Assembly (NCBI RefSeq): GCF_039545095.1 | Contig: NZ_BAABRS010000002.1 | Coordinates: forward strand, 496,001 to 560,000 | Direction: 5' to 3' | Origin: Fodinibius salicampi | GTDB lineage: Bacteria > Bacteroidota > Rhodothermia > Balneolales > Balneolaceae | Length of the DNA: 64,000 bases | In this document: one piece after another, positions 50,631 to 64,000 of the stretch | Layout of the letters: every line of letters starts with the position of its first letter | Position numbering within the stretch: the stretch's first letter is position 1 | The notes under the pieces: generated by a model | Told to the model about the DNA's origin: nothing | The model's input: only the letters and a program-made list of their open reading frames with translations | Databases searched by the model: none | Program-made: the position numbers and the translations under genes

Positions 50631-52151
50631 ATGAATAAAACATATATCAGAGTACTGTTTACATTATTTATTTGTTTCATGTTGGGGTGTCAGAGTGATA
50701 ATTCTTCCCCCGGGGCTACGGATATTAATATGCGGGAAGGAGAAAGACTGGCAAATCAATATTGTGGTAGTTGCCATGCGCCTGTAGCTCCCAGATATTT
50801 GGATAAAGAGACTTGGCAGGATAATATATTACCTGTAATGGCACCTAAATTAGGTATCAGGGTATATAGAAAAAAGCAATACTACCCGGATCCCAAAGGT
50901 TCGCAAGTTTCCATTGAAGAGTGGCAGAAAATTGTTAGATTCTTTGCACAAAATGCTCCCGATTCTCTTGAAATTCCTTCTAGCAATCACCAGGTAAAGA
51001 AGGATTCTTCTCTGTTTTCAATCCGTAAGCCTCACCAAGCCGATACCTCGAAAAATGTTGCTGCTAACACCTTGGTCGCTTTTCATCCTTCCAACCATAC
51101 CATCTATACCAGTGATGGCACGCAGAAAAGGCTATTCCGGTGGAACCGTGATTTAGAGCCTTCTCCCATTGAAGAGTTAAAAATAGCAGGAGTCCACAGT
51201 TCATTTTTGAAAGACTCAACGGGACAGCAATACGGAATATTTACATCAATTGGGACATTGCCTCCTGTAGATATTGCAAACGGGAAGGTGTGGGAATTAA
51301 ATATGGAAAATGATTCTATTAGAACTATTGCCGAAGGGCTTCCACGACCTGTACATTCTGTTAGTGGCGACTTTAATAATAATGGGCTCCAAGACTGGGT
51401 CGTCTGTGGTTTTGGTCATCAAAAAGGAGGACTATATCTGCTTGAACAGCAGGGTAATCGCCAATTTAAGAAAAAAATTATTCGTCCGGTCCCGGGAGCA
51501 GTTGATGCCGAAACCGGCGATTTTAACAGTGATGGTTGGCTCGATATTATGGTATTGTTCGCGCATGGAGATGAAGGTATCTGGTTGATGCTAAATGATA
51601 AAAAAGGCGGATTTAATCAAGATAATATTATTCGTTTACCGCCTGTTTACGGTTCAACCAGTTTCCAGCTGGAAGATTTTAATAGGGATGGGAATATTGA
51701 TATCCTCTATACCTCAGGTGATAATGCAGATTATTCACAGATTTTAAAACCCTATCATGGCATCTATATTTTCATCAATCAGGGAGATTTTACCTTTGAG
51801 CAGGAATACTTTTATCAACTGAATGGTGCAACAGAGGCGGTTGCTAAAGATTTTGATGGCGATGGCGATTTAGATATTGTAGCCCATGCATTCTTCGCTG
51901 ATCTTAAAAATGATCCCTCGGAATCTTTTGTCTATCTGGAACAAGATCAGCCCTTATCATTTACCCCTAAGACGCTTGATATTCACCATTTGGGTCGTTG
52001 GTTAACCATGGATGTAGGTGATTTTGAAGGAGATGGCGATTTGGATATCATATTGGGTAATCATTCCCGGCAGTTTATTGGTGAGGGGAATTTAAACCAA
52101 AACTGGAATACAAGCTTACCTTTTATACTGTTATTGAATAATACGCAATAA
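50631..52151 (+). CDS. Lipoprotein with cytochrome c domain and FG-GAP/VCBS repeats
   Basis: A 506-residue lipoprotein (signal ending CFMLGC, Cys20). Residues 34-115 form a small class I cytochrome c-like domain with CGSCH (C45, C48, H49) and a candidate Met ligand in VMAPKLG. The rest is a beta-propeller of VCBS/FG-GAP repeats (DFNNNGLQDWVVCG, DFNSDGWLDIMVL, DFNRDGNIDILYT, DFDGDGDLDIVAH, DFEGDGDLDIILGN). It lies 147 bp after the second CRTAC1-like gene on the same strand, so it is probably part of the same cluster. Electron transfer at the cell surface is possible; the partner is unknown. Confidence 0.85.
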   Translation: MNKTYIRVLFTLFICFMLGCQSDNSSPGATDINMREGERLANQYCGSCHAPVAPRYLDKETWQDNILPVMAPKLGIRVYRKKQYYPDPKGSQVSIEEWQKIVRFFAQNAPDSLEIPSSNHQVKKDSSLFSIRKPHQADTSKNVAANTLVAFHPSNHTIYTSDGTQKRLFRWNRDLEPSPIEELKIAGVHSSFLKDSTGQQYGIFTSIGTLPPVDIANGKVWELNMENDSIRTIAEGLPRPVHSVSGDFNNNGLQDWVVCGFGHQKGGLYLLEQQGNRQFKKKIIRPVPGAVDAETGDFNSDGWLDIMVLFAHGDEGIWLMLNDKKGGFNQDNIIRLPPVYGSTSFQLEDFNRDGNIDILYTSGDNADYSQILKPYHGIYIFINQGDFTFEQEYFYQLNGATEAVAKDFDGDGDLDIVAHAFFADLKNDPSESFVYLEQDQPLSFTPKTLDIHHLGRWLTMDVGDFEGDGDLDIILGNHSRQFIGEGNLNQNWNTSLPFILLLNNTQ

Positions 52152-52211
52152 AGACCTCAACTGAGAGTAACTAGGTTTTAGATCGTTCTTACTATTTACT
52201 CTATTACTTAC

Positions 52212-52778
52212 TTAGCTATTTTTTAAGGTATCCAATATCTGCTCAGCCTGCCACTGGTGGCGCCGCTGATGGGCGGCCGCTAACAGGTAATATTCTGAGG
52301 CACTTAGTTTTAAAAAGGACATGATAGGATGAGGGATCCACATTTCATTTAAATGAATGGCCTTATCTTTGGAATGTTTCAATTGATTGATGTATCGGTC
52401 CTGTAGTTCGATATATTTATTTAATAAATCCGCTTTAGTATACTCGGCCTGTATTATATCAGGCTGCATCGAGGAAATGGTACTAAGCTTGAGGGTATAG
52501 GGAGGCTCAAAGAAATCCGCCACTTTTTTCCATAGCCAACGTGGTGGGAAGGTTGGTGGAAGCTCACCAGCTTGTTGAGCTGTGGAAAGCTGCTCCGACA
52601 AATTATCCAGGTAAATATTTCCAAATTTAATGAGATGGTCGTAGCATTCGGCAACACACCATTGGTCTTGGTTGGGACGTCGTAAGAAGTATGTATTATC
52701 AATGGAATGAAGGAATTGATTCGCCTGTTCTTTAGATTCCTCAAACTGATGGATATACCAACTATAGCTATATTGCAT
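52212..52778 (-). CDS. DinB-superfamily protein
   Basis: A 188-residue four-helix-bundle protein of the DinB/YfiT type. The expected metal-site histidines are visible as CYDHLIKFG (first helix pair) and HQRRHQWQAEQIL near the C-terminus (the H-x-x-x-H motif). DinB-like proteins are thought to be metal-dependent transferases or hydrolases acting on small thiols such as bacillithiol; the substrate is unknown here. No signal peptide is seen. It converges with the cytochrome/VCBS gene. Confidence 0.75.
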   Translation of the reverse strand: MQYSYSWYIHQFEESKEQANQFLHSIDNTYFLRRPNQDQWCVAECYDHLIKFGNIYLDNLSEQLSTAQQAGELPPTFPPRWLWKKVADFFEPPYTLKLSTISSMQPDIIQAEYTKADLLNKYIELQDRYINQLKHSKDKAIHLNEMWIPHPIMSFLKLSASEYYLLAAAHQRRHQWQAEQILDTLKNS

Positions 52779-52839
52779 GGTAAATTAAAAAAAGAGGGTT
52801 TGAGCTAATTTAGTAGCAAGTATCTTTTAATAAAATGTT

Positions 52840-53748
52840 GTGAAACTATTAAAGAATATACAAGAGCTTCTTCAAGTAACCTATAAGCGAGTATCAGAAA
52901 TTAATATCGGCCTGTATGGCGCTGCTATTGCTTTTTACGCTATATTTTCTACGGTTCCGTTACTGATAATTATTATTTGGCTGGTCAGTATTTTTCTGGG
53001 CAGTGAACTGGGACAAGCGGAACTCATAAAATGGTTGAGTTCAATAGCAGGTCCTAATCTTACTGAACCCATACAGGGGATGATCCGGTCTTCAACAGAA
53101 AATATGACTGGATTCTGGTCTTCCGTGATTGCCAGTGTTGTACTTATATTTGGTGCCACAAAGCTGCTTTCACAGGTAAAGTATACGCTGAATAGAATAT
53201 GGGGGATTGAAAATCCGAAAATTGGGGTAGTTAGATATTTTTTATGGGACCGTTTTAAAGGGTTGCTGTTTGTGGGCTCCCTCAGTTTATTATTTATCCT
53301 GGGATTAGCTTCTGAAAGCGTGCTGCATGTGATGGATCAAGTGTTGATGCCGCTCTTTGGTAGGGATGACTTGTTTTTAATCCAGCTGGGCAGCAGATTG
53401 ACCAATATTGTGTTGGCTTTTACCTTTTTTACCGCGTTATTTAAATTTTTACCCGATATCGAAGCCCGCTTCAGGGATATTGCAGTGGGGGCGCTGGTGA
53501 CTACAATTCTTGTTTTGGTCGGAAAGGCATTGGTTGATTGGTATCTGAGCGCTTCTGCTCTTCAGCCGGTATACAAAGCGGCCGGATCATTTGTGATTTA
53601 TCTTATTTGGATATACTACAATGTTCAGGTCATGCTAATTGGTGCTATTTTTACACAAGTATTTACACAGCGTTTTGGGCGAAGGATCCGTCCGTATTGG
53701 AATGCATCCCTCAGAAGCGATTGGTATTCCGGAGATAAATACCATTAG
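52840..53748 (+). CDS. YihY/BrkB-family inner-membrane protein
   Basis: A 302-residue protein with about six TM helices, matching YihY/virulence-factor BrkB: GLYGAAIAFYAIFSTVPLLIIIIWL at the start, the FGATKLLSQVKYTLNRIWGI segment, and FLPDIEARFRDIAVGALVTTI and GSFVIYLIWIYYNVQVMLIGAIFTQVF at the end. The family was once annotated as ribonuclease BN, which is incorrect; the true function is unsettled. GTG start (VKLLKN); the nearest ATG (52835) is out of frame. It stands alone, convergent to the GH3 gene. Confidence 0.88.
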   Translation: MKLLKNIQELLQVTYKRVSEINIGLYGAAIAFYAIFSTVPLLIIIIWLVSIFLGSELGQAELIKWLSSIAGPNLTEPIQGMIRSSTENMTGFWSSVIASVVLIFGATKLLSQVKYTLNRIWGIENPKIGVVRYFLWDRFKGLLFVGSLSLLFILGLASESVLHVMDQVLMPLFGRDDLFLIQLGSRLTNIVLAFTFFTALFKFLPDIEARFRDIAVGALVTTILVLVGKALVDWYLSASALQPVYKAAGSFVIYLIWIYYNVQVMLIGAIFTQVFTQRFGRRIRPYWNASLRSDWYSGDKYH

Positions 53749-53769
53749 CTTCAATTATTTTGTTGCATA

Positions 53770-54891
53770 TTACAACTCCTCCTTCACCGTTATTATACGG
53801 TTATAAGACTGGTCAATTTGATCTTCGGATATTTCTCCCTCCTTTAGTAGTTCTTTAATAAGGCGGTTTGCTTTGGGAACGATCTCTGGGTCATATACGG
53901 AGTTATTAGCAAAAGAAAGAATATCGACCCCGGCATTGATTGCCTGCCGGATAGCCGTTTTAAGTCCGTATTCTTTGCGAATAGCTCCCATCATCAGATC
54001 ATCAGAGATTACGACTCCGTCATAGCTAAGGCTGTCCCGAAGCATCCCGGTAATGACCGGTTTGGATAAAGTTGCCGGATAGGAGGAATCCCATCGGGCG
54101 TTGTAAATATGAGCAGTCATAATTAAATCGACCAAGCCTGAGTCAATGAGCTCCCGGTAAGGAATGAGTTCATTAGCTGACCAGGTATCCGTCACATCTA
54201 CAACCCCAAGATGTGAGTCTTTTTCTGAGCTCCCGTGCCCGGGGAAGTGTTTTAAGGTAGTTAAGATATCATGTTCATGAAGGACCTTTATATAGGTTTT
54301 GGCATGATTTGTAACTTCCTGTGGATCTGAGGAAAAACTACGTTCAAGTCCACCAATAACCGGGTTATCCGGATTGGTATTGACGTCCACTACCGGTGCA
54401 AGATTGGTATTTATACCGAGGTCAGAAAGCATTTCCGCTGTTTGTCGGGCATAATAACGGGTACTGTCCAAATTATTTAGTTGACCCAGATACTGTGCGG
54501 ATACAGAGGCCGGGAAACCGCGATTAGGTTTAAGTCTCGCTACTTTTCCTCCTTCCTGATCAATGGCTACGATCAAAGGAGTTTCGGAGAGCGATTGCAA
54601 GTCATTTATCAGGGTTTTTAACTGCTCTGGTGACTTGATATTTCTTTCCGCCTTGCCGAGGGGTACATCATAATCAAATAAAGTGACACCGCCCAGATGG
54701 TATTTGGTGATATCTCGTACGATATGATTGGTATCTGCAATAGTCATCCCCCGGAAACCAATGTTCAGCATTTCTCCAATTTTTTTATTGAGAGAGACAT
54801 CTTCAGTATGTGATTCGTTGGTATCCTGCTGGCTGCACGCACTGCCAGCAAAGGTAAAAAGTAAGGCAAGTGAGAGTATTAGTGGTTTCAT
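53770..54891 (-). CDS. Glycoside hydrolase family 3 lipoprotein (NagZ-like)
   Basis: A 373-residue exported lipoprotein (signal ending TFAGSAC). The single GH3 (alpha/beta)8 domain has the characteristic KHFPGHGSSEKDSHLG loop, with the His/Asp pair used as acid/base in NagZ-like enzymes, and the nucleophile region VVISDDLMMGAI. VAIDQEGGKVARL is also typical. NagZ-like enzymes remove beta-N-acetylglucosamine from muropeptides or chitin fragments; being exported, this one should act on the periplasmic or extracellular side. It starts 13 bp after the stop of the TlpA-type gene and so is probably co-transcribed with it. Confidence 0.88.
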   Translation of the reverse strand: MKPLILSLALLFTFAGSACSQQDTNESHTEDVSLNKKIGEMLNIGFRGMTIADTNHIVRDITKYHLGGVTLFDYDVPLGKAERNIKSPEQLKTLINDLQSLSETPLIVAIDQEGGKVARLKPNRGFPASVSAQYLGQLNNLDSTRYYARQTAEMLSDLGINTNLAPVVDVNTNPDNPVIGGLERSFSSDPQEVTNHAKTYIKVLHEHDILTTLKHFPGHGSSEKDSHLGVVDVTDTWSANELIPYRELIDSGLVDLIMTAHIYNARWDSSYPATLSKPVITGMLRDSLSYDGVVISDDLMMGAIRKEYGLKTAIRQAINAGVDILSFANNSVYDPEIVPKANRLIKELLKEGEISEDQIDQSYNRIITVKEEL

Positions 54892-54904
54892 AAGTCTGCG
54901 ATTC

Positions 54905-56395
54905 CTATTCGTTAGGCTTGGTAATGAGGCTGTCTAACACTTCTGGTAAATTAAAAGAGGGACGAATATCGTTATATCGTATAATAGTCCCTTCGGGATC
55001 AACCAAGATATAGAAGGGAATGCCTCCACCCCGGTACGATTTAAAAGTAGATTGCTGGAATCCATTTCCGCCGTAAAGTTGAGGCCAGGGATTGTCGAAC
55101 TGCTGTATGGCCTGCCTCCAGCGCAGACTATCCTCTTCAATGGATATTGCTACAATCTCAAACTCATCGCGTGAATAGGTATTATATAGTTTTTTCATCG
55201 ATGCAAATTCATCCAGGCATGGAATACACCAGCTAGCCCAAAAGTCCAGGAGTACATACTTCCCTCTGAAATCTTTCATTTCAACTATTTCTTCTTCACT
55301 ATTTGGTAGAGTGAAGGGGATGGCTGGTTGTCCCGGGGAGACACGTTTTAGCTCCTCATAAAAGTTTTTAAGAAAGTCTGTGTATCTCGGATAGTCGGAT
55401 GAATAATCCTCAATAAACCGTTCATAACTGGGAGTGGCGATCTCCAGGGGCATTTCACCTAATCTTTCTGCGACGAGGTGCATTCTGGCGTATGCTTTGG
55501 CCCGTCGATCTTCGACATGCTGTAAAACCGCAGTACGGGCGGAATCAAGAGTTTCATAACCCAGACGTTTGATATCATATTCCATAAGTGACTGCCCGTA
55601 TTCTTCTTCGATGCTATCCGCTACGCCAAAGGTGTTTGCATAGGCATTGGTAAAGTCCCGGATGCCGGCCCGTTGGGCATGGAGAGTATTAAATTCAAAA
55701 AAATGAAGCTCTTTGGCTTCTTTTATTACAGCCTGACGTTCTTTGTCGGGTGCAAATTCGGGCTGTTCTCTTCGGTAACGAATATCTTCCAGCCGTTTTA
55801 CAAGGTATTCGCCTACCGTGCGATAATACAGGGGGCGCAAGGGAGTATCCTTAAAGTAATTCTCTGCAAGTTTATAACGTTTTTGATATAGATTGGTGAC
55901 TTGTGTTGATTCACCTTCTCGGAAGGCCGGGAGTTGTTTCTCTATTTGAGAGAGTATCTGCTGCTCTTCATTCCAATAGTCCGCATAAAGACTGTCCCAG
56001 GGTTCAGAATAGCCCTTCACTTCTACCGATTTAGGGAATTGATTGCGTTGGATTGTTAGATTAAGCGAATTACCAGGATCTACGAGTAGCGGGTAATGCT
56101 GATCGTCAATGAAAAGTCGCACGAGCTGGGTTGAATCCACGGGGAGATCAACCTGAAAATTTCCGTTATTATCAGGCTCAAAGGGATAAGTTATTTTATC
56201 TGCATATTTATAGTGTATAGGCTGCTTGCTGATATATATTTCTGCAGAGCCTACATAATCAATAACTCCTTCAATCGAAGTGATATTATTAGATTGCTTG
56301 CCGTTGCCGTTTTCAAAGTTGTTCTCACAACCGATGAGCAGTAACGTGCAAAGTCCAAGGAGTATTGTTATATGAACGTGAGCGTATATATACAT
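54905..56395 (-). CDS. TlpA-family thioredoxin-like lipoprotein
   Basis: A 496-residue lipoprotein (signal ending TLLLIGC). The N-terminal part (about 35-130) resembles the DUF4369-like beta domain frequent in Bacteroidota redox proteins. A helical middle region (about 140-330) is rich in acidic residues. The C-terminal TlpA/ResA domain (about 345-496) carries KYVLLDFWASWCIPC with C390 and C393 and the cis-Pro in RGGGIPFYILVD. It should act as an outer- or inner-membrane-anchored periplasmic thiol reductase. The GH3 gene follows at once in the same direction; no functional link between them is evident. Confidence 0.88.
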   Translation of the reverse strand: MYIYAHVHITILLGLCTLLLIGCENNFENGNGKQSNNITSIEGVIDYVGSAEIYISKQPIHYKYADKITYPFEPDNNGNFQVDLPVDSTQLVRLFIDDQHYPLLVDPGNSLNLTIQRNQFPKSVEVKGYSEPWDSLYADYWNEEQQILSQIEKQLPAFREGESTQVTNLYQKRYKLAENYFKDTPLRPLYYRTVGEYLVKRLEDIRYRREQPEFAPDKERQAVIKEAKELHFFEFNTLHAQRAGIRDFTNAYANTFGVADSIEEEYGQSLMEYDIKRLGYETLDSARTAVLQHVEDRRAKAYARMHLVAERLGEMPLEIATPSYERFIEDYSSDYPRYTDFLKNFYEELKRVSPGQPAIPFTLPNSEEEIVEMKDFRGKYVLLDFWASWCIPCLDEFASMKKLYNTYSRDEFEIVAISIEEDSLRWRQAIQQFDNPWPQLYGGNGFQQSTFKSYRGGGIPFYILVDPEGTIIRYNDIRPSFNLPEVLDSLITKPNE

Positions 56396-56590
56396 TTTGG
56401 GGATAACCGTTTGTCAGAAAGTTTTAACTAGAGACAATAAGTCCTATAAGGAAGCAATAATCTATCATTAAAAAATGAGTAGAAAAAATTTGTAAGACAG
56501 ATTGATTTGATTAATCTTATAACAAGAAAAGAGCATTATTCATTGAGATAGTTCTTGAGTGATCCTGTAGAGCATCAATAAAAGTTTTTC

Positions 56591-56629
56591 AAACTTTTTT
56601 GTAACAAATTGCTTGTTAAACACTCTTGT
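56591..56629 (+). promoter_or_regulatory. Putative ECF-type promoter upstream of the anti-sigma-like TPR gene
   Basis: AAACTTTTTTGTAACAAATTGCTTG (25 bp, containing TGTAAC at 56600-56605) is followed after 16 bp by ACTCTTGT (56622-56629). The identical block with the same 16-bp spacing occurs on the other strand upstream of the lipoprotein pair (61726-61764). The TGTAAC core has the AAC of ECF -35 elements. A 165-nt leader would precede the ATG at 56794. The remainder of 56396-56793 is AT-rich with no gene. Confidence 0.65.
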
Positions 56630-56793
56630 TAATTGAGGGGATGATCTAAATGTCTGATTAGGGGAAGTCCTCAAGGCAACAACTGGAATAAATAGCAATA
56701 ATTGTTGTGAGTAAAGAGTGATGAAGACTCATATATATAATACCTTTTGATCTCACAATGTATTTTTCTGCATAAATTTTAAAAAGTGGAATT

Positions 56794-57564
56794 ATGAATG
56801 AGCGTCTAAATAACGAAGAGCTAAAAGGAAAAATTGAACAATATCTGGATGGCCAACTTTCGCCTGGGGAAGTAGATGAACTTTGGGCAGAGCTTGTAGA
56901 GAAGGGGGAGTATCTGGATTATATGAAGAGTGTAGCTAATTTGAAGTCTGTAGTAGAAGACAAAAAAGAAGAGGAAGAGCAGGTACAGGAGACGAAGAAA
57001 AGCTATATTTACTATGCGGCGGCTGCAGTGATAGCATTGTTAATTGCCGTATTGGGCGTAATGAACTTATCTAATCAAGAATCTGTCGGATTGGTTAGCC
57101 CGATTCCGGATGTTGAACTTGAATATTATCGTTCTGCAGATGGCACTGTTACCGATCGCGATAGTGATAAGTTGATACGTGATGCCGTAGCTCTTGCAAA
57201 TAGTGGTGAAATAGATAAAGCTATTTCTCTCTTAGAAGAAGAGATAGATAAGGTTGAAGAAACAGAACAGATAGCCCGCTTGAATATGACATTGGGATCT
57301 TTGTTCTATAACCAAGAGCAGTACGATAAGGCAATTGAACAGTACAGCTGGATTATAGAAAGGGCAGATAAAGAAAAATTGGGACTCTTACTGCTGGAAA
57401 AAGCACTGTGGTATCGAGGAAACGCTTATTTGCAGAAGGATCAAATTGCAGAAGCTAAAACTGATATTAGAAAAGCCTATGACTTGAACGGAGCGTATCG
57501 CCGCGTAACAGAACGCTATCTTAAAAGTTTGAATAACAACAATAATAATACTACTACTAGATAA
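56794..57564 (+). CDS. Membrane anti-sigma-like protein with periplasmic TPR repeats
   Basis: A 256-residue protein. Residues 1-65 are acidic and helical, starting MNERLNNEELKGKIEQYLDGQLSPGEVDELWAEL, similar to the N-terminal sigma-binding part of ECF anti-sigma factors, but without the zinc H-x3-C-x2-C motif. One TM helix (71-91, YIYYAAAAVIALLIAVLGVM) places the rest outside. TPR-like repeats cover about 125-240 (AISLLEEEIDKVEETEQIARLNMTLGSLFYNQEQYDKAIEQYS). The tail is NNNNNTTTR. It is convergent to the CHAT gene and shares a promoter motif with the small lipoproteins. Anti-sigma action on the sigma factor at 61971-62558 is inferred from context. Confidence 0.65.
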   Translation: MNERLNNEELKGKIEQYLDGQLSPGEVDELWAELVEKGEYLDYMKSVANLKSVVEDKKEEEEQVQETKKSYIYYAAAAVIALLIAVLGVMNLSNQESVGLVSPIPDVELEYYRSADGTVTDRDSDKLIRDAVALANSGEIDKAISLLEEEIDKVEETEQIARLNMTLGSLFYNQEQYDKAIEQYSWIIERADKEKLGLLLLEKALWYRGNAYLQKDQIAEAKTDIRKAYDLNGAYRRVTERYLKSLNNNNNNTTTR

Positions 57565-57684
57565 GGATAGTGTATGTAGGATATATATAGTTAGTTACTA
57601 CTATATAATAGAGTCTGGTACTACATCTACATTATATCAACTCAGTTAGTTAAATTTCTAATATTCCTATTTCATCTTATACAA

Positions 57685-60600
57685 CTATACGGATACTGAG
57701 CCGTTAGAAGATTGAAATAGGACTCCCTTCTCTTTGAACAAAGTCAATATTATAATAATCAAAAAGTAGAGTAAGAAGATCCCAGCTATAGCCAGATTTG
57801 TTCTTCGGTTGGGATGTACAATAGGCTCGGTATCACCAATCAGCATATAAGGACCCCAGAGATGCGGACTTGCATTCTTTGTCTCCAGGAAGTATCGTTT
57901 GGTAGCTTGAAGGGCTTCAGATTTGGATTTCCCCTCATTAAGCTGATCATAGAAATGGATTGCAAAGTCTGAGGCGAGCATATCATTGACCGACCATATA
58001 TTCAGTACGAGCGATTGTGCTCCGGCATATTGTAAGGCCCGGCTGAATCCCATGATTCCGGATCCCCGGATATAGGGTCCCGACCCCGACTTGCAGGAAT
58101 TAAGCATGATCATTTCATTATTGAGATTTAACTCAAAGAGCTCATATGCAAATAGTTGATTACTAAATGCACTGTCTTTTTCTGTTGAGTTATTAGCCAT
58201 GTAGATCGTTGAAAAAAGCGGATCTCTCTCAGAAACTTCACTGTGTGTGGCCAAGTGCAGAATTCGTCCATTTTGAGCAGATTGGGTAAAAGTTTCTTTT
58301 TGTGACGCATTATTGGTATAAGTTTTGAGATTGTTAAGGCGCGTCAACCGGTCCTTAATGGTATTCACTTCTGCTTCTGCAAAGGGAAGGGGAACCAGGT
58401 TTTTGCTTGGGAAGCCGTCAAAGTTTGATACCCCATAACCTATGTAATTCCACTCATTCGTTGAATCGGTATTATTGGTCTGTGCCTCCGTTTTAAAGTC
58501 GTTCAGAGAAGTCAGGTAGTGGATGTCAAAACGTTCTATAGCATACCGGCTTTCCCCGTAACTGAATTTATGAGCCGGCTTTTCTATAGGTAAGACATCT
58601 ACCGGAAGCTGATAGAGGTAACTGTCCGGGATAATGGTAATTTCTTCAATGCGGCTGGGCAGCTCATCAATATTCAGCAGTTGAGAGACGGCGTACAGTG
58701 AGTCGAGATTCGTTGAGTTATTGGCCAGTTGCTCGACAGAACCCTCAAAGAGCTTACGTCTTTTTTCATCGAGCAGAATGACATCAACATTTACATCAGA
58801 ACGGGTAATTTTGGCTATATAGTATTGGTCCTTCAGTTCGGTGATGTGTAGTACCAATTGATGAGCAGAAAGCTTACGCTGGACTTCAGGTATGGGTATC
58901 GGCTGTACATCAGATTGTGAAGAGATTTTCCGGTCAAACTTTCTTTTCTGGAGATTAAGCTCATTGATTTCCTGCTGAACCTGAAATTGCTCATCCTGGG
59001 GAAGGGTAAGTAATCTCTTGCGTTTGGCGTCCAGCTGGTTCGTAATATTTTTGTACTGAGTGAGTTCCGACTCACTCAGCAGGCTGGCCCGGATCAGTGG
59101 ATTTTGATAAATGGACGCATCATTAATGGTTTTTAATCGGTCTAAAAGGTTGACGGCCTGGGCAGGCTGATCACTATCCCTATAAATAGACGCCGTTAGC
59201 TCAAAAGCATCAATATATTCATCGGCGACATGCCAAAACCCGGACTGAAGGTCCGTGCTGCTTTGAGCCCGTTCCACGACCTGCTCAATGGTAGGAGTTA
59301 AAATCGCCAGTGCTTCTTCAGGCTGACCTTTTTCGTGGAGCAGCTGCGCCCTGACGGTATTGGCTTTCACAAGCTGTTCAAAGTTAAGTTTGCTTAGGTC
59401 AAGCTGACTAAATTCTTTAACAAGAGTCTCTGCTTTTGATATTTGATGCTGTTTCAGATGAATCCTAGCTTTATTCACTATCGCATCGATATAGTTGGGG
59501 TTGTCTTCTTGTGGAGTTAGTTCGATAATCCGATCATATCTTATTAAGGCTTTTTCAAATTTTTGCTGTTTCTCAAATGTCTGCGATTCTTCATTGAGAA
59601 GGTAGATATAGTATCTGGAGTCATTTTGTGGATCTAAGGCTTGTTCAGCATTTAAAAAATATTCATGTGCTTTTTCAAAATTATTTTGGAATTCCCGGTA
59701 GAATGAACCTAAAAAGGTATAAATTTTCCCCAAGTCAGTAGGATTCCCCAGTTCTTTAGCTAGTTTTTCAGCCTGTTCAATGTAATTTAGAGCATTGGAT
59801 AAATCATTAGTCTGTTTATAGTAAACAAAAAGATTGTTATAGATTTCCAGCTGGTGCGAATAGTTCCCTTGTTGTTGGGCTGTTTCCAGGGCTTGGAATT
59901 GAAGGTCTAGGTACCGATCATATTCTCCCAATTTATGATAGGTGATTCCCAGGTTGTTATAGAGCGAAGAGCGATTAATGGGAATATTATTGCTATTTGC
60001 CTCTTCCAATACCTGGGTATACACTTCTTTGGCTCGCTGTATTTTTCCAATACTATATAAATAGACCCCTTGCAAGGTTCTGACACTGAGTTCCGCCTTT
60101 TTGTCATTTGTATATTTGGTGAGGGGCAGGAGATAATTTCTTGTAATGGTTAAGTTGCGGTCAAAATATCCGGTCCTATACATGGCATAATCAAGGTACC
60201 GGTAAATTCTTAACTTAAGCGAAGAAGCGGGAAACCAATGATCATTTATTAACGTATTATAGAGTGGGGTAATTTGTGAATAGCGGTCCAACAGGTAGAG
60301 CGCCTGCATCAAAGTAAAGGCGGGTAGGTGAGGTCCTCTATGGTTGATTACAGATCGGTTATTCTGCCATTGGTAAGCTAGCTGTGTAATATAGCTCTCG
60401 GATAAATATTGGCGTCGATCTGGGTGGGTGAGCAGGAAAAAATGAGGCAGCCGAAAGGATTTTGTGGGGAGCATTTCATCTGTAATACGGTCATTGGCAA
60501 TGATCGCATTACTCATATCCTGGTAATTGATATTGCTAAAACCTCCTGGAAAAGTATGGTTAGAAGTAAAATCCTCGTACAGCTGCCGCTTATTGGGGAG

Positions 60601-60936
60601 ATCTTGAAGCAGGAGGGCGATCAGGAGATCGGCCGAACCCGTTTCAAACACCACTTTTTTCAGCTGCTTAGCAGTTGAATTCTCAATACTCTTAAAAAGA
60701 GACAGAGGGCCCTCGTTAAGTCCTTGTTCACGGACTTTCTGTTCGACAAAAGTTTTTACGTTTTTGTTATCGGAGGTTATGAGAGTAAGCGCCCACAGGT
60801 TTTCATCCGTATTTCGTCCTTCCTCAATTTCCTGTATATAATGCTCCGCCTGGGTAAAGGCCTGCCGTACATTTTCAGGATGATTTTCCGGGCCCTGTAC
60901 AAGCTGAAGAATGCCAAGAAGTAGAAGGAGCCGCAT
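57685..60936 (-). CDS. Exported TPR-CHAT domain protease-like protein
   Basis: A 1083-residue protein. A short signal peptide (MRLLLLLGILQLVQG) is followed by TPR repeats (about 270-600), then a coiled-coil (about 640-690, LDAKRKRLLTLPQDEQFQVQQEINEL), then a CHAT domain (about 790-1040). The caspase-like dyad is present: H898 in LHLATHSEVS and C948 in MLNSCKSGSG. A C-terminal TM helix (about 1052-1070, IAGIFLLYFLIIIILTLF) anchors it, so the protease domain should lie in the periplasm. CHAT domains are caspase-like peptidases, and TPR-CHAT proteins can be activated by partners. No substrate is known; the neighbouring sigma/anti-sigma genes and lipoproteins are candidate partners. Confidence 0.88.
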   Translation of the reverse strand: MRLLLLLGILQLVQGPENHPENVRQAFTQAEHYIQEIEEGRNTDENLWALTLITSDNKNVKTFVEQKVREQGLNEGPLSLFKSIENSTAKQLKKVVFETGSADLLIALLLQDLPNKRQLYEDFTSNHTFPGGFSNINYQDMSNAIIANDRITDEMLPTKSFRLPHFFLLTHPDRRQYLSESYITQLAYQWQNNRSVINHRGPHLPAFTLMQALYLLDRYSQITPLYNTLINDHWFPASSLKLRIYRYLDYAMYRTGYFDRNLTITRNYLLPLTKYTNDKKAELSVRTLQGVYLYSIGKIQRAKEVYTQVLEEANSNNIPINRSSLYNNLGITYHKLGEYDRYLDLQFQALETAQQQGNYSHQLEIYNNLFVYYKQTNDLSNALNYIEQAEKLAKELGNPTDLGKIYTFLGSFYREFQNNFEKAHEYFLNAEQALDPQNDSRYYIYLLNEESQTFEKQQKFEKALIRYDRIIELTPQEDNPNYIDAIVNKARIHLKQHQISKAETLVKEFSQLDLSKLNFEQLVKANTVRAQLLHEKGQPEEALAILTPTIEQVVERAQSSTDLQSGFWHVADEYIDAFELTASIYRDSDQPAQAVNLLDRLKTINDASIYQNPLIRASLLSESELTQYKNITNQLDAKRKRLLTLPQDEQFQVQQEINELNLQKRKFDRKISSQSDVQPIPIPEVQRKLSAHQLVLHITELKDQYYIAKITRSDVNVDVILLDEKRRKLFEGSVEQLANNSTNLDSLYAVSQLLNIDELPSRIEEITIIPDSYLYQLPVDVLPIEKPAHKFSYGESRYAIERFDIHYLTSLNDFKTEAQTNNTDSTNEWNYIGYGVSNFDGFPSKNLVPLPFAEAEVNTIKDRLTRLNNLKTYTNNASQKETFTQSAQNGRILHLATHSEVSERDPLFSTIYMANNSTEKDSAFSNQLFAYELFELNLNNEMIMLNSCKSGSGPYIRGSGIMGFSRALQYAGAQSLVLNIWSVNDMLASDFAIHFYDQLNEGKSKSEALQATKRYFLETKNASPHLWGPYMLIGDTEPIVHPNRRTNLAIAGIFLLYFLIIIILTLFKEKGVLFQSSNGSVSV

Positions 60937-61162
60937 TGCGATGATAAGTATGAGTTAATGAGGGCTTGTTAACTAAAGATATAAAGAAATATCCCAAACT
61001 TATCGAAACATAAATTTATTTTAATGTGACGGCCCTTCTACCTTCCGGCATTTAGAATGATTCATAATAATGAACTGGTTTGCCCAAACACTGCATTGAG
61101 ACCTGAAAGAAAATATTTGAACTGATGATTGGTCAAGCATTACAGAAGAAATTCCAAAAATT

Positions 61163-61363
61163 TTATTCTGGCTTGTCAACAATAGGGCTCATTTCAGCAT
61201 CTGTACCAAAACCGGGGTTGTCAGGCTGGTCGGGCGTTACTTGCTCCGTTGCAGGCTGTTCGGGCTGCTGAGAAAGTCCGGGATCAGTAACAGAAGAAGC
61301 ACAACCGGCGAATAAAGCTACGATGAAAGTGAGAGCGACGAATTTTTTAATGAGAGATTTCAT
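61163..61363 (-). CDS. Small lipoprotein, tandem copy 1
   Basis: A 66-residue precursor: signal peptide with lipobox LFAGC, giving a mature 46-residue Pro/Gln/Asp-rich tail (DPGLSQQPEQPATEQ, then DQPDNPGFGTDAEMSPIVDKPE) without predicted structure. It is identical in every base to the copy 261 bp upstream, so it arose by a very recent duplication. It probably shares the transcript of copy 2, since the only promoter-like element is upstream of copy 2. Function unknown. The family was not recognised. It lies between the CHAT gene and the sigma factor. Confidence 0.75.
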   Translation of the reverse strand: MKSLIKKFVALTFIVALFAGCASSVTDPGLSQQPEQPATEQVTPDQPDNPGFGTDAEMSPIVDKPE

Positions 61364-61423
61364 AATTTATCTTTTTTTTGACTACAGCTATAATTGTAGA
61401 AGAAATATCACTGATTATATTTG

Positions 61424-61624
61424 TTATTCTGGCTTGTCAACAATAGGGCTCATTTCAGCATCTGTACCAAAACCGGGGTTGTCAGGCTGGTCGGGCGTTA
61501 CTTGCTCCGTTGCAGGCTGTTCGGGCTGCTGAGAAAGTCCGGGATCAGTAACAGAAGAAGCACAACCGGCGAATAAAGCTACGATGAAAGTGAGAGCGAC
61601 GAATTTTTTAATGAGAGATTTCAT
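61424..61624 (-). CDS. Small lipoprotein, tandem copy 2 (promoter-proximal)
   Basis: The same 66-residue lipoprotein precursor as the downstream copy, with identical coding bases. The two differ only outside the gene: this one has GAGTCCTTTTTATT-type sequence (plus strand) beyond its start and the conserved promoter block at 61726-61764, while copy 1 is preceded by a short AT-rich gap. An AAGGACTC stretch (minus strand) upstream of the ATG may serve as ribosome site. The gene is divergent from the sigma factor. A stress-response or target lipoprotein for the CHAT system is a possibility only. Confidence 0.75.
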   Translation of the reverse strand: MKSLIKKFVALTFIVALFAGCASSVTDPGLSQQPEQPATEQVTPDQPDNPGFGTDAEMSPIVDKPE

Positions 61625-61725
61625 AATGAGTCCTTTTTATTATTTGATTATGAGTAATTAATATAAAAGTGAAAATAAGCCATTGAGCCTGCTTCGAGAT
61701 AAACATACAGACCCCCTTCATTTAT

Positions 61726-61764
61726 ACAAGAGTATTTTGCAAGCAATTTGTTACAAAAAAGTTT
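61726..61764 (-). promoter_or_regulatory. Putative ECF-type promoter upstream of the lipoprotein pair
   Basis: On the minus strand: a 25-bp block identical to 56591-56615, with TGTAAC (61755-61750), then 16 bp, then ACTCTTGT (61733-61726). It would give a leader of about 100 nt before the ATG at 61624. It lies in the divergent region shared with the sigma factor. The rest of 61625-61970 is AT-rich and shows no gene. Confidence 0.65.
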
Positions 61765-61970
61765 ATTTTTGAGTTATTTTCTTGCAAAACAGCATAAATA
61801 TAGATTAACTATATAATATAACTTTATATAAAACAACTATTTAGAGAGGAATTGGTTTTTAAGGAAGCCGGATTGTAATTTGGATGGCAAGAGAATAGTT
61901 ATATATTCAAAATAGAAGATACCGTTGATTGGGGACCTATTTTTTCTGCAAATAAGATGCATATATCATT

Positions 61971-62558
61971 TTGAGTTTTTCCAAAGTCGATTATTCCGAA
62001 ATTATTGATGCTCTTCAACAGAATCGGGAGGGAGAGGTAAACGAGCTGTTGAAAGAACTTACTTACCGTTTGCGGGACTACATGCGTGTGGTTCTGGATG
62101 CCAGTCAGGATGATAGGGAAGAATGTGTCCAGCGAGCGCTTACCATTGCATATGAGCAGATTATACAGGGAAACATCAAGGATGAGAAAAGGATATTTGC
62201 TTACCTGTTAAAAATATGCCGCAACGAGTATTTCACGCTTAAAAAAGAAAACCGGCGATTGGAGTCTTTAGATAATCATGATTATGAAGAACAAGATAAT
62301 TATGAAGGACACTTTGTGGACCCCGGGGACCAGGTCCAAAACCTGATGGATGAAGACCGGCAGAAAATTTTAGAGGCCTGCCTGGATAACCTAAAAGAAG
62401 AATATAGGGAGTTTATCGAATATCTGATGGAGCGGCCAAATATTTCTACTGAAGATGCAAGCAGGCATTTTGGGATTTCACAAGCCAGTATGAGAACCCG
62501 GAAATCGCGAATTTTAGAGCGTCTTCATTACTGTTTCCAGCGGAAATGGAATAAATAG
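61971..62558 (+). CDS. ECF-like RNA polymerase sigma factor
   Basis: A 195-residue sigma-70-family protein. The region-2-like part (about 20-90) has LTYRLRDYMRVVLDASQDDREECVQRALTIAYEQI and KDEKRIFAYLLKICRNEYFTLKKENRRLESLDN. The region-4 part (about 125-190) has RQKILEACLDNLKEEYREFIEYLM and the DNA-recognition helix ASRHFGISQASMRTRKSRILERL. The linker is highly acidic (DNHDYEEQDNYEGHFVDP). TTG at 61971 is the best start: there is an in-frame TAA shortly upstream and no ATG before residue 38. It lies divergent to the lipoprotein pair and is the likely activator of the shared promoter motif. Confidence 0.85.
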   Translation: MSFSKVDYSEIIDALQQNREGEVNELLKELTYRLRDYMRVVLDASQDDREECVQRALTIAYEQIIQGNIKDEKRIFAYLLKICRNEYFTLKKENRRLESLDNHDYEEQDNYEGHFVDPGDQVQNLMDEDRQKILEACLDNLKEEYREFIEYLMERPNISTEDASRHFGISQASMRTRKSRILERLHYCFQRKWNK

Positions 62559-62930
62559 GTCATTGCTTTGATTATTTTCGATGTTCAGGAATGCCTTTCT
62601 AAGAACTATCTATTCCTATTATACTCGTCTTTGTGATTAGAAAAAATTGCTTAAAAATTTCCCCAGCCATTTTGCTTCTTGTTCCCATTTTATAGGGCTA
62701 CCAGCAGCAATCTTTGATGATCATCCCACGGGTTCGAAAAAAGTTCATAGAGGTTGAGAGAGTATTTGCATTTCACGCCTATATTTATATAGTTACGAAT
62801 TAAAATTTTTGAGAATGTTTTCGCTATAGGGATTATAACGGACCATTTATATTAATACTGTCAGATGGATAAATAGATTGTTAAGACAAGCGTATCTTAA
62901 CTTCAGTAAGGGATTAAATAATAGGTAGAT
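62559..62930. other. Intergenic region, no gene seen
   Basis: About 370 AT-rich bases between the sigma factor and the DUF4212 gene. It presumably contains the symporter promoter. No hairpin with a T tract, no RNA gene and no convincing small frame was recognised. Confidence 0.5.
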
Positions 62931-63191
62931 ATGGGAAATAAAGAACAAATGGAAGCATATTGGCGGGCCAATCTTCGCTATGTGGGAATACTTTTGGGAA
63001 TTTGGTTTCTGGTTTCTTTTGTATTTGGCATTCTATTGGCAGAACCTCTGAATACCATCCGGATAGGTGGATTTAAACTGGGGTTTTGGTTTGCTCACCA
63101 GGGATCTATCTATGTGTTTGTGATCCTGATTTTTGTGTATGTATGGCTGATGAACCGCCTTGACAGAAAATATGGCGTACGAGAAGACTGA
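62931..63191 (+). CDS. DUF4212 small subunit of a sodium:solute symporter
   Basis: An 86-residue inner-membrane protein with two TM helices and the family signature: MEAYWRANLRYVGILLGIWFLVSFVFGILLAEPLN, then GGFKLGFWFAHQGSIYVFVILIFVYVWLMNRLDRKYGV. DUF4212 proteins are nearly always encoded just before an SSS-type symporter and act as its small subunit. That gene follows after 27 bp. It is preceded by a separate intergenic region and so heads the operon. Confidence 0.92.
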   Translation: MGNKEQMEAYWRANLRYVGILLGIWFLVSFVFGILLAEPLNTIRIGGFKLGFWFAHQGSIYVFVILIFVYVWLMNRLDRKYGVRED

Positions 63192-63218
63192 CTTTTAACC
63201 CCGATTTACAGCTTGCTT

Positions 63219-64000
63219 ATGGATATTCAAACGTGGACATATTTACTGGTAGGGCTCACTTTTATCTTATATATAGGTATTGCTATATGGGCGCGGGTAG
63301 GGTCTACAAAAGATTTCTATATAGCCGGCAGTAAAGTCCACCCCCTGGCCAACGGAATGGCTACAGCTGCGGACTGGATGTCAGCAGCATCTTTTATCTC
63401 GATGGCGGGTCTTATTGCCTTTATGGGATATGATGGAGGGGTTTACCTTATGGGTTGGACCGGCGGATATGTACTTTTGGCTCTGTTGTTAGCTCCTTAC
63501 CTTAGAAAATTCGGGAAATTTACTGTTCCTGATTTTATTGGGGACCGTTATTACTCAAATGTAGCACGAACGGTAGCCGTTATTTGTGCAGTCATTGTTT
63601 CGTTTACCTACGTAGCGGGACAGATGAGAGGGGTGGGCGTTGTTTTTGCCCGTTTTCTTGAAGTATCAATCAATACTGGTGTGTATATTGGAATGATCGT
63701 GGTTTTCTTTTATGCCGTATTGGGTGGAATGAAAGGGATTACCTACACGCAGGTTGCCCAGTATTGTATCCTTATTTTTGCCTATATGGTCCCTGCCTTT
63801 TTTATTTCTTTTCAGCTAACGGGCAATGTAATACCCCAAATTGGATTTGGAGGAACTCTTGCCGACGGTTCGGGGACTTATCTGTTGGAGAAGCTGAACC
63901 AACTGCATGTGGAGCTGGGTTTCGCAGAATATACATCAGGAACAAAGTCTACTATTGATGTCTTTGCTATTACTTTGGCACTGATGGTGGGAACAGCAGG
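63219..64000 (+). CDS. Sodium:solute symporter (SSS family), 3' end outside window
   Basis: The frame starts at ATG 63219 and stays open to the end of the window (260 codons). It shows the SSS core: TM1 ([20 protein letters not shown]), the [33 protein letters not shown] motif with the sodium-site residues, then [13 protein letters not shown] and [18 protein letters not shown]. With the DUF4212 partner it belongs to the acetate/solute symporter subgroup (ActP-like). The substrate is not certain; monocarboxylates are the usual guess. Transport is driven by sodium at the inner membrane. Confidence 0.9.

Follow-up and report, generated by a model that had tools for sequence, protein, structure and literature searches.

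Which regulator, if any, connects the genes of a locus in Fodinibius salicampi that encodes a tetratricopeptide repeat (TPR) protein resembling anti-sigma factors, a pair of small lipoproteins, a CHAT protein and a sigma factor of the extracytoplasmic function (ECF) type? The window analyzed here, a 64,000-nucleotide (nt) stretch of contig NZ_BAABRS010000002.1 (positions 496,001 to 560,000 of the forward strand), carries one 25-bp block twice, in front of the TPR gene and in front of the lipoprotein genes (Table 1). The original prediction took this block, together with a second box behind it, for an ECF -35/-10 promoter and assigned both copies to a single regulator, most simply the sigma factor encoded from position 61971. 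Comparison among related genomes reveals a promoter class of fixed geometry, with conserved targets and a small-RNA element. We consider it very probable that this class is read by the ECF sigma factor at 61971, that it defines a regulon of the family, and that the TPR protein provides anti-sigma feedback in a circuit that includes the CHAT protein.

Table 1. Features of the window, numbered from its first letter
Feature	Position	Strand	Remarks
25-bp block, TPR-side copy	56591..56615	+	TGTAAC (-35-like) at 56600-56605; motif scan
ACTCTTGT, -10-like box of the TPR-gene promoter	56622..56629	+	16 bp after TGTAAC
TPR protein, anti-sigma-like, 256 amino acids (aa)	56794..57564	+	Helical N terminus, one hydrophobic (transmembrane) segment at about 69-95, C-terminal TPR repeats
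TPR-CHAT protein, 1083 aa	57685..60936	-	Hydrophobic N terminus, CHAT domain (HLATH / LNSCKSG), C-terminal hydrophobic (transmembrane) segment
Small lipoprotein, second copy, 66 aa	61163..61363	-	Identical to the first copy
Small lipoprotein, promoter-proximal (first) copy, 66 aa	61424..61624	-	Lipobox-like LFAGC (by eye)
ACTCTTGT, -10-like box of the lipoprotein-CHAT promoter	61726..61733	-	Motif scan
25-bp block, lipoprotein-side copy	61740..61764	-	TGTAAC at 61755-61750; motif scan
ECF-type sigma factor, 195 aa	61971..62558	+	Oriented divergently to the lipoprotein promoter; proposed to read the motif

Geometry of the promoter class

The duplication itself proved exact. The 25-mer AAACTTTTTTGTAACAAATTGCTTG has precisely two matches in the window, on opposite strands, where shuffled sequences give 0.00, and both copies lead across the same 16-bp gap into the second box, the pattern TGTAAC-N16-ACTCTTGT being exact at 56600-56629 (+) and 61755-61726 (-). 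From the composition of the window, 0.0007 exact matches would be expected per window and 0.04 per genome; all other matches in the window carry 3 mismatches, a looseness at which 4 matches correspond to chance level (4.35). The identity over 25 bp exceeds the functional consensus, as constraint across relatives falls on TGTAACAA, on the spacing and on the -10 box, in a conservation profile over 70 unique sites for which TGTAAC, N16 and ACTCTTGT were preset by the search. At the sequence level, the consensus of the promoter is TTTTGTAACAAA-N13-TACTCTTGT, and transcription of the TPR gene is expected to start a few bases 3' of its -10 box. A G-rich patch that had been noted behind the second box holds up locally, with GGG following soon after the -10 box in 6 of the 8 distinct sites of this genome, but carries little information across the 70 unique sites (positions 34-45).

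The spacing supports the reading as an ECF promoter. Across 92 genomes of the family, including our own, and with the reversed motif as control, 167 sites were found when the gap between the boxes was widened to 11-22 bases, against 32 for the control. An exact N16 accounts for 137 of these sites, in 44 genomes, against 4 control sites, while the spacings N11-N22 without N16 give 30 against 28, placing the excess at N16 only. A few N15 or N17 sites are probably functional as well, because they are located at TPR, lipoprotein or small-RNA genes.

One might instead attribute the sites to the primary sigma factor, a reading to which we assign a very low probability. Primary promoters of Bacteroidota carry a -33 element, and the TTTG before TAAC might represent one. 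The -10 sequence TACTCTTG is one base from the -7 box TAnnTTTG described for Bacteroidota in PMC9723704, and a T stands directly 5' of ACTCTTGT in 70% of the 70 unique sites. The restriction of the excess to a 16-bp spacing speaks against the primary sigma factor, as do several observations presented below. The flavobacterial ECF-type motif reported in the same source (PMC9723704) has a CGT box, not CTCTTG.

Sites in the genome and the family

The genome of F. salicampi (11 contigs, 3.9 Mb) contains 9 exact matches and 1 with a single mismatch, as compared to no exact match and 2 with at most one mismatch for the reversed control; a total of just nine exact sites in 3.9 Mb again argues against the primary sigma factor. 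Eight of the nine are distinct, since a single repeat contributes two of them, at the ends of contigs C2 and C5. This motif-bearing repeat (L010:10739-10850 and L012:1-112) runs off the two contig ends, and a search with its 112 bases in 12 genomes of the genus returned only the repeat itself and one 30-base partial match.

The original prediction would have been refuted by a motif lying mostly inside genes, which is not the case. Among 117 inspected sites (all 71 from a search of 58 genomes and 46 more from the family), 8 lie under an open reading frame (ORF) of at least 100 aa; 5 of these were taken to be in real genes, for a RecD-like helicase, and 3 of the ORFs were judged spurious (1 at a contig edge and 2 before TPR and lipoprotein genes). 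The helicase sites (L147, L149, L156, L168, L177) were rejected as promoters, since the codons for VTRAR spell the pattern by coincidence; they are kept within the count of 117, and RecD-like is a reading made without a domain search.

The core classes among the 117 sites are the lipoprotein-CHAT side of the sigma gene (29 sites, a few by position only, at contig ends), the small RNA (17) and the TPR gene (13). Further classes are a protein starting with MGQQQLLL (9), a short AraC-type helix-turn-helix protein (6), the helicase coding sequences (5) and HU/DUF4469 (4), followed by a response regulator, TspO and a prophage-like region with three sites each; ParA, an S8 peptidase, a C10 peptidase, an RND-like pump, an MNDYSDII protein and the contig-end repeat with two each; and 13 singletons. 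Family names rest on domain searches with representatives, to which other members were assigned by sequence likeness, the RND-like and prophage-like designations being made without a domain search. The MGQQQLLL protein has no match in Pfam and looks pilin-like by eye. In the HU/DUF4469 genes (L008:6535-6720, L011:8749-8925) a similar hairpin leader, GACGTAGCTTCGGCTGCGTC, with a 1-base difference, lies between the promoter and the start codon. No tRNAs or known RNA families were found near motif sites in the loci scanned.

A small RNA behind the promoter

At nine motif sites that lack a sense ORF, the promoter leads into one conserved element, to which eight more sites were added later. The element corresponds to a small RNA of about 100-120 nt that typically reads ACTCCT...GCTGAAACCTAAAGC, followed by a GC-rich terminator hairpin and T; the copies of our genome and of genome G007 deviate, with CTGAGCCCTGAAGC and without ACTCCT. 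In an alignment of 16 rows, 9 of the 10 pairs of the terminator hairpin show pair-keeping changes on both sides. The count of such two-sided changes and the covariation score exceed those of 500 out of 500 shuffles and of all slid versions, and the further pair types exceed 478 out of 500; the structure prediction for the small RNA comprises this hairpin only. The RNA is unlikely to be coding, judging from its sequence: its longest ORF starting with ATG has at most 18 codons in all 16 rows, and a shared start, MLKPKA, whose frame enters the stem of the terminator, is seen in 4 of the 16 but is missing from the remaining 12. The small RNA had no match in Rfam in the loci scanned.

A covariance model of the RNA matches 57 of the 92 family genomes at E 0.01, a number that includes genomes carried by weak matches alone, and 50 of the 92 at E 1e-5. 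Outside the family, the 128 genomes of the order yielded three matches (E 2e-5, 4e-4 and 8e-3). The rows of the model begin at least 7 nt after the -10 box, so that the promoter is excluded from it, and the upstream regions were viewed for 47 of the 66 matches, namely, all those not picked via the motif (37 better and 10 weak). TGTAAC is present upstream of 34 of the 37 better matches and is followed after 16 bases by NCTCTT in 30, the other four reading a variant -10 (TCTCTA, AATCCT, GTTCTT, AATCTT). Of the remaining three, one has N17 (G066), one, the second copy of G006, has no clear promoter and one lies at a contig edge (G070). The promoter score exceeds 12 in 30 of the 37 better matches, the best of 940 shuffled stretches scoring 9.2. 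That TGTAAC precedes 34 of 37 RNA matches found without it is a further point against the primary sigma factor.

Nine of the ten weak matches (E 2.2e-4 to 6.4e-3) were not counted as this RNA, the promoter being present in one only (G061). Weak matches at L237, L238, L239, L241 and L245 resemble a second small-RNA family (ACTCCGAATAACTCAAACCGA-like, with a terminator) without this promoter. At locus L161, in genome G066, three small-RNA copies stand in tandem, each with its own promoter, one of them N17.

With two conserved boxes spaced by roughly two turns of the helix, and with helix-turn-helix and response-regulator genes among the targets, the site could also be imagined as an operator bound by a transcription factor rather than a promoter. 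The boxes are, however, unlike each other and show no symmetry, and in the RNA matches that have a promoter, 0-33 nt separate the end of the -10-like box from the start of the RNA model, which is where a promoter belongs. Taken together with the tracking with an ECF ortholog described below, this makes an operator hardly credible to us. As the product of an ECF promoter, the small RNA would form the ECF-dependent, noncoding arm of the regulon and may act by pairing with target mRNAs. A CACTCCT stretch, found in part of the RNAs but missing from the copy of our genome, hints at ribosome-binding sites as targets.

The sigma factor at 61971 as the candidate reader

The proposal that a single regulator, the sigma factor at 61971, serves these promoters gains from its divergent position, its co-occurrence with the motif and the RNA, and a concerted change of the -10 box in one genome; the link as such stays indirect. 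A search with the sigma alignment gave 38 named loci, from Fodinibius, Aliifodinibius, Gracilimonas, Balneola, Rhodohalobacter, Balneolaceae and Balneolales, and including one each titled Rhodothermia, Bacteroidetes and Chitinophagaceae. The motif (with a relaxed -10 box) is divergent from the sigma gene and aimed at the lipoprotein-CHAT side in 30 of these loci, and in about half of the motif-positive ones the lipoprotein is preceded by two motifs in tandem.

Across the 92 genomes, the exact motif is present in 40 of 54 with a sigma ortholog and in 4 of 38 without, 34 having neither. Sigma ortholog and small RNA are both found in 47 genomes, the sigma ortholog alone in 7, the RNA alone in 3 and neither in 35, at presence cuts (best E 1e-35 for the ortholog, 1e-5 for the RNA) that were chosen after the tables had been seen. 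The three genomes with the RNA alone (G022, G070, G083) are drafts, 94, 83 and 57% complete. Joint presence or absence of the motif or RNA and the sigma ortholog is seen inside genera too. In our own genus, G001 and G011 are without the ortholog and keep a distant paralog only, and neither the exact motif nor the RNA is found there. Of the 28 genomes in genus g19, the sigma cut is passed by 8 and the RNA is present in 8, with 7 genomes belonging to both sets; among the 20 that fail the sigma cut, one has the RNA. Such loss together with one ECF gene (G001, G011 and the 20 of 28 g19 genomes, the one with the RNA included) would not be expected if the primary sigma factor were the reader. In genome G006, ATCCTGT replaces CTCTTGT at the promoters of the lipoprotein, the TPR gene and the RNA alike, and a shared alteration of the -10 box at three core promoters is what would be expected had one reader changed.

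Several observations weigh against this assignment, the late choice of the presence cuts among them. The sigma factor of the window scores 41.0 bits against TIGR02937 (sigma70-ECF) over residues 26-186, below the cut-off of 42.9. Its own gene is without an upstream motif, and the neighboring motif points away from it. Eight of the 38 loci have no motif beside the sigma gene (L296, L304, L311, L308, L309, L310, L312, L313); four of these (L308, L309, L312, L313) are distant relatives, with 28-33% identity, and L310 has just 23 bases upstream. The Fisher values for the associations (6e-15, 8e-10) are inflated by the relatedness of the genomes. The exact motif is absent from 14 of the 54 sigma-positive genomes; in 13 of these, either the sigma gene or the RNA has a TGTAAC variant, the remaining one being G084. 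Genome G006 retains two exact ACTCTTGT sites elsewhere, which a switched specificity does not predict, and G047, outside the family, has two exact sites in a genome without a sigma ortholog. Beyond these points, the window protein scores 19.2 bits against Sigma70_r4_2 (cut-off, 25.7), and a profile of the sigma orthologs picks up RpoE of Rhodobacter weakly (E 0.005). In a sigma tree whose base is open, G012, G018, G019 and G084 are placed nearer second copies, which makes orthology unsure for these four.

A different ECF sigma factor of the same genome could be the reader, such as the paralog at C3:501353, which with its TPR partner forms a very similar two-gene unit; we judge this the least probable of the alternatives. 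Genomes G001 and G011 retain the paralog yet have neither the exact motif nor the small RNA, and the sequence upstream of the C3:501353 unit is different. Three paralogous sigma genes (L256:5194-5365, L270, L078) were seen by eye to share a similar upstream element of another kind, AAAAAGGAA...GCCGTTTTTACTACC, a candidate for the paralogous sigma genes' own promoter. On balance, the genomic comparisons suggest that the sigma factor at 61971 reads the motif.

The TPR and CHAT proteins

In the window, the TPR gene lies about 5 kb from the sigma gene, within the same locus, and the same holds for the 13 of the 38 named loci in which it was found, many contigs ending before that distance; in the paralog unit of our genome on contig C3, a TPR gene directly adjoins the sigma gene. 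The motif stands upstream of 12 of the 13 TPR genes found in the named loci, and the thirteenth (L276) has N17. All 13 TPR proteins scanned with a hydropathy script contain a single hydrophobic segment, at about 68-96. An AlphaFold model built with 14 sequences (mean predicted local distance difference test score [pLDDT], 71) shows helices at 2-18, 24-36, 40-61 and 72-93, the last of them at the transmembrane segment, and TPR repeats at 123-250, and is confident in the TPR part only, the mean pLDDT per ten residues being 42-72 over residues 1-120. None of the 50 matches listed by a Foldseek search with this model is an anti-sigma entry; they are mostly TPR proteins and align chiefly over the TPR part. 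The zinc motif of ZAS domains is absent, residues 1-68 of the window protein containing no Cys or His; anti-sigma domains without zinc exist. The TPR protein is probably the anti-sigma factor of the sigma factor at 61971. Such a protein is of interest because only 6% of Bacteroidetes ECFs are reported to adjoin a class I anti-sigma domain (PMC7406223).

The CHAT protein of the window has a CHAT domain with the His/Cys dyad (PF12770, E 2.6e-48) and is a putative protease. Both CHAT motifs, HLATH and LNSCKSG (containing Cys948 in the window protein), are present in an ORF of at least 700 aa in 17 of the 18 loci scanned (two pairs of which come from the same genomes), the exception being L282, and the C-terminal hydrophobic segment is above threshold in 14 of the 17; in shorter ORFs, the N terminus has possibly been clipped by the choice of start. 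A PDB sequence search with this protein gave 23 matches, by name all TPR-type, with no CHAT protease among them. By analogy to CASP (PMC10028731), the CHAT protein might cut the TPR protein, and if both face the periplasm, protease and sensor would meet there. No CHAT gene is found among the ORFs listed around the paralogous sigma-TPR pair of our genome, and CHAT is therefore not required for every such pair. Tandem lipoprotein copies of identical protein sequence also occur in L112, L124, L128, L150 and L184, with a conserved tail like PIVDKPE, and several contigs end there.

A possible feedback circuit and its relatives

In the circuit that we propose, the core targets would be the lipoprotein-CHAT operon, the TPR membrane protein and the small RNA of about 110 nt encoded elsewhere. 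The TPR protein would hold the sigma factor at the membrane, probably as its anti-sigma factor, until a signal on the TPR domain frees it, whereupon the sigma factor would raise both its own brake and the CHAT operon, closing a feedback loop. More tentatively, and with considerable doubt, the system may be a CRISPR-free envelope relative of CASP in its logic: a periplasmic, caspase-like CHAT protease, perhaps gated by the small lipoproteins, would make the first cut in an anti-sigma factor with a TPR sensor, and the sigma factor would amplify protease and brake and turn on the small RNA as a silencing arm.

The locus resembles that of CASP/Craspase (Csx29-Csx30-CASP-sigma; PMC10028731), which unites the gene of an ECF sigma factor with an inhibitor of that factor and a protease of the TPR-CHAT type, and which itself contains predicted sigma sites. 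CASP differs in that it belongs to a type III-E CRISPR system whose protease is activated by RNA (PMC10028731), whereas here the CHAT protein has a hydrophobic N terminus and a C-terminal transmembrane segment, and the candidate inhibitor is a membrane TPR protein. No Cas genes, including Cas7-11, were noticed among the ORFs at 52000-64000, by inspection only, no Cas search having been run and the rest of the genome not having been searched; no ORF in this interval exceeds the CHAT gene in length.

CHAT-domain proteins also occur near the genes of ECF54, for which proteolytic control has been proposed (PMC8999054). ECF54 is described in that source without an anti-sigma factor, whereas here an anti-sigma-like TPR gene is linked and has the same promoter, a comparison made by description. 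Likewise, the SigmaE-dependent FoxI and FoxJ of Fusobacterium (PMC11005410) provide an ECF regulon with a short noncoding RNA arm, albeit in another phylum; the likeness to our predicted RNA is one of description. Proteolysis of the RseA/DegS and RsiW type, as mentioned in PMC10028731, resembles the present case in its single-transmembrane architecture and in a sigma site before the brake, from which we infer feedback, but here a TPR domain would act as the sensor and a CHAT-family protein as the protease. In the open-licence literature, considered mostly at the level of titles and the beginnings of abstracts, no publication on the motif or the small RNA was found.

In summary, the genomic comparison points to a real and conserved ECF-type promoter class and a regulon with a new small RNA, and thereby supports the original prediction. 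A defined alternative-sigma promoter for a bacterial family makes its regulons readable from sequence, and there is in addition a conserved small RNA whose distribution follows that of one ECF sigma factor. The locus also sets a CHAT protease beside a sigma factor and an anti-sigma-like TPR protein in one candidate feedback circuit outside CRISPR, in which the question of the substrate of membrane-attached bacterial CHAT proteases becomes directly testable. If the circuit is true, the Balneolota lineage would possess an ECF response that is controlled by a CHAT protease and has a noncoding arm.

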